33,195 bases of DNA, taken from contig MNYK01000134.1 in NCBI GenBank assembly GCA_001873115.1, forward strand, positions 1-33,195. The letters are read 5' to 3'. Of the stretch, positions 31,595-33,195 are shown in pieces. The notes under the pieces are model-generated. The model made no database searches. It was not told where the DNA came from and saw nothing but the letters and a program-made list of their open reading frames with translations. The position numbers and the translations under genes are program-made. Source of the DNA: Desulfobacterales bacterium CG2_30_60_27 (GTDB lineage: Bacteria > Desulfobacterota > Desulfobulbia > Desulfobulbales > CG2-30-60-27). Every line of letters begins with the position of its first letter. The stretch's first letter is position 1.

Positions 31595-31668
31595 GCGCGG
31601 CCTCCGAATTCGCAGGCCGCTATAGTGCTACAATTCGGCTGGATTTGCAAGACCTGCGGCAGAGTGGG

Positions 31669-31756
31669 GTGGACGAAGTGGACTTTGTGGACAGAGTGGA
31701 CCCATGACTTTGTCTGACGTGTCCACCAAGTCCACCAAGTCCACTACGTTCACCAC
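31669..31756. repeat. Inverted arrays of GTGGAC / GTCCAC 9-bp units upstream of moxR
   Basis: Four units begin GTGGAC (31669, 31678, 31687, 31696), then after 16 bases three units begin GTCCAC (31721, 31730, 31739) and one begins GTTCAC (31748). The two arrays are reverse complements and could form one long hairpin. It separates the decayed response regulator from moxR. The same 9-bp unit occurs inside hsdR and hybD. Confidence 0.8.
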
Positions 31757-31767
31757 CCCGTCCGCCC

Positions 31768-31998
31768 TCACTCCGCCGCCTCCCCTCCATAAGCCTCCCG
31801 GTAAACGATCTTGATCTTCTCCACCAGCACGTCAAACTCGATGGGTTTCAGGCAGTAGTCGTTGGCGCCGTACTCCAGGCTGCGCAGGCCGGTCTGGATG
31901 GAGGCGTAGCCGCGGCGGGTCAGGCGTTTGGCGGTGTTTTCCAGAAAATCGATTTCGTCGTCAACCAGCAGGATGTGGATCGGGGTCTTCATGTGCAT
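31768..31998 (-). pseudogene. Response regulator receiver domain with internal deletion
   Basis: The 76-residue frame starts like a normal receiver (ILLVDDEIDFLENTAKRLTR, D13-D14-E15) and ends like one (GANDYCLKPIEF). The middle runs RRGY directly into ASIQTGLRSLEYG. In intact receivers about 50 residues lie between, including the phosphorylated Asp and the following Thr/Ser. The deletion keeps the frame, so a peptide could be made, but it cannot be phosphorylated as usual. It overlaps the end of the PEP-synthase-like remnant by 38 bases, as expected of a former two-gene operon. Confidence 0.82.
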
Positions 31999-32955
31999 GC
32001 TCCGCTTGTGGGGCGATGGTTGCCAGGTCGGCTATGATCTTGTGTCGGTAATGTTCCAGCATGTTCTGGTCGGCCATGACCATGTCGATCTGGCGGGTGT
32101 GGATGAGGAGATGGCCGAAGCCCCTAAGGCTCACCGGCGGCGGCCCCTGCCAGGGGATGGCGGTCATGCCGGCCCAGATGGCCAGCATGGGCACGGAAAC
32201 AATCTGGCCGATCTGGACGAATTTTTCTTTCTGCACAAAATCATCACTAAGCCGCTGTAAAAAAATAACATGGCCAACGAGTTGACTGGAGCGGCATAAG
32301 GAGCCGTAACGAAATCAATATAAATGGCCAAGTTATTTCGTAACGGCTCCTAAAGCCGTCATCCAGGTTGATGACCCACCACTGGAAGGGGGTTTCACCC
32401 ACCAGTTGTTTGGCCGACTTGGCGTCAAAGCCGTGCCTGGCGCCAAAGGCGAACATCTCGGCCACCGCCTTTTCATGGCAGAAGCGGGTCAGGTCGTGAA
32501 AGGTGGGGCAGGATGATGCCAGGAAATAGAGGGAGGCCGGGTCGGTGAGGTGCAGTGGGGTGGCGAGGCGCAACACCTCTTGGAGCAGGCGGTGGACCGG
32601 GCTGCCGGCCATCAGGTTCGGCAACGGGGCCGAGTCGGCCAGGATCTCGGCCTGGCGGCCGTCATAGACCCGGCAGCCGGTGGCATCCACGGTGATCAGT
32701 TGACCGCTGGTGATTTTTTGGGTGGCGCCCGCCATCCCGAAGATGGCGGGGATCCCGAACTCGCGGGCCACGGTGGCCAGATGCGCGGCCACCTGGCCGG
32801 TCTCGCTGACTACGGCCACGGCCCGAGACATCAGGGTGGCCCACTCCGGCAGGGGATGGGACACCACCAGCACCGCGCCCTTGGGAAACTGCAAAAGATC
32901 CAGGCTGGAGGGGTGTAGATCTTTTAGGGCCACTATGTATTCTTTTAAAATCAGC
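31961..32955 (-). pseudogene. PEP-synthase-like (PEP/pyruvate-binding) gene, truncated and interrupted
   Basis: The N-terminal ATP-grasp part is absent: the frame opens after a TAG at 32955-32957. What remains is the swivelling phosphohistidine domain (VVSETGQVAAHLATVAREFG, then IPAIFGMAGA) and a C-terminal part (FHDLTRFCHEKAVAEM, PFQWWVINLDDGF). At about 32352 a palindromic insertion breaks the frame. The reading resumes below 32249 in another frame as SDDFVQKEKFVQIGQIVSVP, then MTAIPWQGPPPVSLRGFG. Removing about 103 bases (32249-32351) joins the two frames as DDGF-SDDFVQ. Such proteins occur beside response regulators in related bacteria, as here. It is not expected to function. Confidence 0.8.
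32249..32352. mobile_element. Palindromic insertion (MITE-like, about 100 bp)
   Basis: The element has a 17-base inverted repeat, AGGAGCCGTAACGAAAT (32299-32315) and ATTTCGTAACGGCTCCT (32335-32351), with one mismatch. A second hairpin is GCCGCT (32251-32256) with AGCGGC (32290-32295). AAGCCG flanks both ends (32249-32254 and 32353-32358), as a target duplication might. TGGCCA occurs in both hairpins. It encodes no protein and disrupts the PEP-synthase-like gene. Confidence 0.7.
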
Positions 32956-33195
32956 TAGATAGCCAACTTAATGTTTTTTTTACAGCTTCCGGATTGCAGG
33001 AAACAATGCAGTCATACCATGGTGCACGACCCTTACATTTTTGCGAACAAGCAGTGCTCGCTTACCCAGTTGTGCCATCATCATCAAGAAAACCTTTATA
33101 TTTGGATAGTTATTCACTGCTTGCTTATATAACCCATGGAGGCGCATTTTGGCAGGCCGTGCCTGTTTATATCAAGATGATATTACAATGATTTT
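32956..33195. other. A/T-richer stretch without a recognisable gene
   Basis: From about 32935 the composition shifts clearly toward A/T. A plus-strand frame at 32994-33191 would give a 65-residue peptide, but it has no ribosome site or family resemblance and is not called. The boundary coincides with the lost N-terminus of the PEP-synthase-like gene, so this may be the edge of a foreign or rearranged segment. Confidence 0.45.

Follow-up and report, generated by a model that had tools for sequence, protein, structure and literature searches.

The question raised by this locus is what kind of sequence interrupts a minus-strand gene near the end of a contig from Desulfobacterales bacterium CG2_30_60_27, and how it came to be there. 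The window, that is the whole stretch of DNA analysed, is contig MNYK01000134.1 with its 33,195 nucleotides (C138 among the 157 contigs of this 2.5-Mb genome). A first-pass annotation had described a palindromic insert of two hairpins at 32249-32358, directly flanked by AAGCCG, and interpreted it as a non-autonomous mobile element inserted in a gene. The interrupted host gene (31961-32933, minus strand) is a remnant which we take to be PEP-synthase-like. In G001, a genome of the same genus, the orthologous gene is uninterrupted and forms an open frame of 886 aa, with 92% identity over query residues 8-246. The G001 DNA across the insertion site reads GGCTTTAGTGACG, and the window without 103 bp gives this sequence, confirming the earlier claim that deletion of 103 bases restores the frame. 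On the plus strand the empty site is CACTAAAGCC, with a single CTAA, and the insertion adds 103 bp 3' of it.

The exact insertion thus occupies 32251-32353 on the plus strand and follows the target tetranucleotide CTAA at 32247-32250, which lies outside the element; the span first proposed was too wide. The AAGCCG flanks, whose starts are 104 bp apart, proved to be a coincidence. The left one consists of the target's AA and the element's GCCG, the right one of the element's last A and host AGCCG. Being such a composite, with the right AAGCCG missing at other copies, they were ruled out as a target duplication. Compared with G001, ~487 residues are missing from the start of the gene remnant and ~100 from its interior, so the gene has been damaged beyond the insertion of the element. 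The tail of the contig, from about 32911 to 33195, has no alignable counterpart at the G001 locus.

Next, we looked at further copies. The window interval 32248-32353 is a repeat of 106 bp, consisting of TAA and the 103-bp element, which has no coding capacity, runs from GCCGCTG to GGCTCCTAA and ends in CTCCTAA. The genome holds 21 matches to it, of which 18 cover its full length. Twelve of these agree with the window copy at every one of the 106 bp, another is broken by Ns and five belong to a second subtype (92%). These 18 matches represent 14 distinct flank pairs, several lying at contig ends with repeated flanks. All full-length copies in this genome share both ends and lie between unrelated flanks. 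Second copies in the genome or its relatives, which the annotation had proposed to look for, are therefore plentiful, many being found in relatives, and the empty site sought in a homologue is present in G001, with further ones in relatives. Evidently, the element is mobile, as the annotation supposed, and identical copies together with empty sites in a congener indicate that the family has been active recently.

Several copies show peculiar arrangements. Loci L002 (end of C142) and L014 (start of C6) have identical flanks and carry element subtypes A and B, respectively; strain variation, gene conversion or assembly error are alternative explanations. L015 and L016, at the ends of C101, have the right flank in common and not the left one, and an end of C101 folds back on itself through the element (loci L015, L016 and L019, at both ends of C101 and the end of C147). 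Either recombination between copies or chimeric assembly might account for the C101/C147 arrangement.

Within the order, 15 of 38 genomes carry the element, the own genome included, and diverged copies occur in 14 of the 37 others. The right-end pattern, with three mismatches allowed, was likewise positive in 15 of 38 genomes, at 58 places in G023 and 61 in G032. A draw of 297 genomes from the phylum yielded five positives, two of which were own-order genomes already counted. At least 80 named genome contigs match an internal 20-base pattern, and 73 of the 86 pattern matches there are full length. Among the matches listed, named carriers are mostly Desulfobulbaceae, Desulfocapsaceae, Desulfurivibrio and unclassified Deltaproteobacteria MAGs; the others are MAGs labelled Geobacter, Holophagaceae and Acidobacteria and one Candidatus Methylomirabilota. 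The last MAG accounts for 11 of the 80 loci among these matches (L261, L262, L266, L268, L274, L276, L281, L287, L289, L310 and L328). Its copies possibly result from cross-phylum transfer or from misbinned contigs, and outlying carrier MAGs in general may be misbinned. A phage or plasmid origin was considered and dropped, since at the sensitivity used viral contigs contained no exact pattern match and plasmid and phage collections no similar DNA. There is also a second subfamily, of which nine copies were aligned (loci L238-L244 and L253 in G032 and G023, for example L239:2623-2697). Its right half is the same (from GGCATAAGGTGCCG to CGGCACCTAA), its hairpin 1 is long and perfect, and its left end is different and longer.

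To define the borders, we took full-length copies from the 15 genomes of the order and the at least 80 named contigs, kept those with distinct flanks (166 copies), omitted the chimeric contig end L019 and applied a symmetric filter to both ends. The left triplet is TAA in 126 copies and the right one in 156, while the tetranucleotide CTAA stands on the right in 154 copies, next to any left flank, and on the left in 68. Non-TAA triplets occur on the left only in 33 copies, on the right only in three and on both sides in seven, and the two triplets are equal in merely 2 of these 43 copies. In copies with a left TAA, the preceding base is C in 54% of cases, as compared with 10% at background TAA, and the right TAA is followed by A in 50% (35% in the background).

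Empty sites complement these counts. We queried 13 own sites against three genomes and found four of them spanned, all in G001 (L014, L015, L017 and L012, at 73-85% identity with small gaps); the own site L006 was matched only from CTAA rightwards. When sites of G023 were queried in its sister genome G032, 7 of 14 were spanned. At one site of G023 (L087, contig C70), the filled form reads TTG-element-GCC, with TAA at the right, and the empty form TTG-GCC; as there is one TTG and no second, nothing has been duplicated, the junction being slightly ambiguous in that GCC is common to the flank and the element start. Two other filled sites, L160 and L179, have the left triplets GAA and CAA where G032 has TAA, so left triplets also drift; at L156 the deviation lies in the empty site instead. 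Border counts and empty sites with a single triplet together show that the left triplet is the target, that the right CTAA (32350-32353 in the window, plus strand; TTAG on the other strand) belongs to the element, and that no target duplication takes place. In entering 3' of a fixed short target and duplicating nothing, the element behaves as IS200/IS605-derived elements do.

Comparison of copies with neighbouring reading frames revealed an enrichment at stop codons. The sample comprised 115 copies with a left TAA, each having 260 bp or more of flanking sequence at both ends; reading frames of at least 80 codons were defined mechanically, and background sites were drawn from the same loci. Exactly on the stop codon of a flanking frame lie 56 copies (32 on the in-frame stop of a left frame, 21 on that of a convergent right frame and three on both); 21 copies are within frames and 38 elsewhere. 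Outside frames, 56 of 94 copies are at a stop, in comparison with 401 of 1818 background TAA. For YTAA the corresponding figures are 48 of 77 and 230 of 735, and for CTAA 29 of 47 and 87 of 233 (p = 0.003). Such a bias can reflect either targeting or the elimination of harmful insertions. Both borders read CTAA, which is TTAG on the opposite strand, so that an element inserted at a stop would leave a stop codon for the genes on both sides; either gene would keep its stop, which may be why so many surviving copies sit exactly there, and we infer selection as the cause of the bias. At L087, in a gene that we take from its sequence to encode CTP synthase, the insertion removes the stop codon, and the element would give a new one a few codons on.

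The two-hairpin palindrome noted at first is present beyond chance, although its supposed 17-base arms, those of hairpin 2, comprise 16 positions with one A.A mismatch. A single DNA strand of the element is predicted to fold at -21.2 kcal/mol, as against -10.5 ± 2.4 for shuffled sequences (z -4.4; none of 200 shuffles as good). In the plus-strand coordinates of the window, hairpin 1 pairs its 5' arm 32251-32256 with the 3' arm 32290-32295 (paired cells 92.1%; one pair shows a T-A/C-G exchange in 14 of 42 sequences). An internal TAA (32297-32299), read from the sequence and lying in invariant or nearly invariant alignment columns, immediately precedes hairpin 2, whose arms are 32300-32315 (GGAGCCGTAACGAAAT) and 32335-32350 (ATTTCGTAACGGCTCC); here 92.7% of cells are paired and 5 of 15 pairs changed on both sides. 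In addition, AACATGGCCA in the loop of hairpin 1 (32267-32276) covaries with 32325-32334 in the loop of hairpin 2, with double changes at 4 of 10 pairs, and these two segments may be arms of either a loop-loop pairing or a sub-terminal inverted repeat.

Over the three helices in a chosen diverse set of 42 copies, 88.5% of cells are paired versus 84.3 ± 0.4 in shuffled alignments. Double-change cells number 51, against 18.3 ± 3.2 when shuffled and at most 26 in slid versions, and the covariation score is 0.163, against 0.099 ± 0.006 and at most 0.075, respectively. Further pair types are not unusually numerous (34 versus 32.3), and the number of pairs with a double change, 12, is equalled by one slid version. 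For a larger set (144 sequences), every helix beats 500 of 500 shuffles, a control which kinship among sequences can beat without structure. The loop-loop helix in a 14-pair register has 1564 of 1981 cells paired versus 1418.9 ± 10.1 when shuffled, and the left and middle direct repeats display in this set none of the covariation that a shared protein-binding site would give. As judged from these alignments, the structure is conserved. Covariation of the loops does not by itself prove base pairing, as a symmetrical inverted repeat would look alike; sub-terminal symmetrical arms are indeed present, and the outermost bases of the two ends differ.

The element contains no gene, and clustering of 832 reading frames around copies gave no recurrent transposase cluster. 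Of the order's 38 genomes, 34 have genes of Y1 transposases (PF01797), as do all six additional element-bearing genomes tested, so their mere presence does not discriminate. At the Y1 gene loci fetched, none of the genes was flanked by the element and no significant match to the element ends was detected. In the own genome the left-end pattern with three mismatches retrieved known copies only, and 20 regions inspected among the non-matching hits of the right-end pattern in the 38 genomes were full or diverged copies or members of the second subfamily. A transposase with matching terminal repeats, proposed by the annotation, was found neither at the fetched Y1 loci nor by these searches of the left end (own genome) and the right end (38 genomes). 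Three RAYTs of the own genome, on contigs C90, C29 and C47, have GGGACGTT-type inverted ends, and a weak-scoring Y1 gene on C129 has a GTAG repeat of its own, GTAGGGTGCG; the RAYT-like genes with ends of these two types are at loci L129, L130, L131 and L132. A group of RAYTs of 320-350 aa was initially found only in element-bearing genomes, in a comparison which element-negative genomes entered by best match only; it was dropped as a candidate mover because its members possess GGGACGTT-type ends of their own and because G023 has no member among the matches listed, although the right-end pattern occurs there 58 times. A weak profile match at L110 lies within a glycosyltransferase-like reading frame and was judged to be due to chance. 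With no gene inside, no linked transposase and none of the fetched Y1 genes flanked by the element, the mover presumably acts in trans or is absent from these assemblies.

Our preferred interpretation, held with slightly better than even confidence, is a non-autonomous single-strand DNA element of the REP or IS200/IS605 kind, inserted 3' of CTAA and mobilised in trans. Single-stranded DNA would fold into two adjoining hairpins, TAA-HP1-A-TAA-HP2-TAA, whose loops could also pair. An enzyme encoded elsewhere would cut after a CTAA-like target and after the terminal CTAA of the element, and would join the element 3' of the target without duplication, which is the Y1/HUH logic of IS200/IS605 and TnpA-REP. 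The single-sided target, the lack of duplication, the hairpins and the terminal tetranucleotide within the element make this logic the best fit and the mechanism a probable one; the single-stranded intermediate, the enzyme class and the action in trans are its presumed parts. Against it stand the lack of a cognate Y1 enzyme at the loci fetched and of space for a guide between the left cut and the left hairpin, as well as the loop-loop arms, which are equidistant from both ends like a terminal inverted repeat. Moreover, insertion into the lagging strand would predict a strand bias, whereas GC skew, our proxy for strand, was positive in 66 of 114 cases (p = 0.11).

That equidistance would suit a classical MITE derived from a DDE insertion sequence, whose terminal inverted repeats would be imperfect and ~26 bp long and whose target duplication would be the 3-bp TAA. 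Positions 4-29 on the left mirror positions 78-103 on the right, both stretches contain AAATAACATGGCCA, the inverted arms covary, and TAA flanks most copies on both sides. A duplication should however leave equal triplets, which is so in only 2 of 43 non-TAA copies, with left-only deviations outnumbering right-only ones 33 to 3, and the single TTG at L087 contradicts it. The pairings of HP1 and HP2 also covary separately, and no insertion sequence with these ends emerged from the left-end search of the own genome or from the inspected part of the non-matching right-end matches in the 38 genomes, so we consider this origin quite unlikely. One core in the empty site and cores on both sides after insertion, the left from the target and the right from the element, are what strand exchange would leave if a site-specific recombinase, of the IS110 or the tyrosine type, integrated a circle-forming element at a TAA/CTAA crossover core. 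Yet the flanks have no conserved target sequence beyond CTAA and the reading frames around copies include no linked recombinase gene cluster, which leaves this mode unlikely. The conserved, covarying structure and the location at gene ends would agree with a structured RNA or terminator, immobile and spread by ordinary duplication. This reading is very improbable, being contradicted by the identical 106-bp copies in unrelated flanks and by the empty orthologous sites; besides, the window has no Rfam match at gathering scores and, by eye, no T-run directly 3' of either hairpin. A host role may possibly have been gained later.

Among known systems, the single-strand element favoured here resembles REP/BIME/REPIN sequences of the RAYT/TnpA-REP type, being short, non-coding, hairpin-bearing and present in many copies 3' of genes. 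As a high-copy extragenic palindrome lying mostly 3' of genes, it behaves as expected of a REP/RAYT system, and, like REPs, it has an internally mismatched hairpin beside whose foot a tetranucleotide lies. According to PMC3733652, GTAG REPs are located at gene ends and "often provide" a TAG stop codon, just as the end of this element supplies a stop. It differs from REPs in its border, CTAA/TTAG instead of GT[AG]G, in its two hairpins of dissimilar sequence with covarying loop-loop pairing, in its fixed 103-bp unit and in that no RAYT gene among the Y1 loci fetched is flanked by it. In the literature consulted (PMC3733652, PMC6006769 and PMC8266576), the TnpA-REP of E. coli accepts no alteration of GTAG, while other enzymes tolerate some. 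PMC6006769 describes the IS200/IS605 scheme as insertion 3' of a short target without duplication, with the right tetranucleotide inside the element and hairpins near the ends. IS200/IS605 elements also carry a guide, which separates the left cut from the left hairpin. Our element agrees with these features in all but the guide, for which there is no room on the left, and it is peculiar in that target and right-end tetranucleotide are identical (CTAA); also, pattern searches and the Y1 loci fetched disclosed no tnpA or tnpB with its ends. The GGGG-type ends of the own-genome RAYTs resemble the inverted-repeat consensus that PMC6006769 gives for subclass 2.1. Bacterial MITEs are similar in size, in lacking genes and in sub-terminal inverted repeats, and dissimilar in that the present element has unequal termini and makes no target duplication.

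A limited literature search retrieved neither a REP or MITE family described for Desulfobulbaceae or deltaproteobacteria nor the sequence of the element. This is a real, recently mobile and, as far as searched, previously undescribed family of REP-like hairpin elements. It may even represent a distinct, Desulfobulbales-type system of ssDNA transposition, a notion that we put forward as rather doubtful: its target would be the right-end site (CTAA/TTAG), its hairpins would be locked by the covarying loop-loop contact, and its enzyme, perhaps no known RAYT or IS200 transposase, would steer to stop codons where both genes keep their stop. A tiny hairpin family in sediment bacteria, clean and recently active, makes it possible to examine if single-strand insertion is how REP-like elements spread, to our knowledge an open question in the field, and its insertion without duplication, stop-preserving border and covarying loops offer a direct route to the enzyme. 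Elsewhere in the window, between two genes, positions 31664-31760 contain an inverted, internally repeated GTGGAC/GTCCAC stretch.
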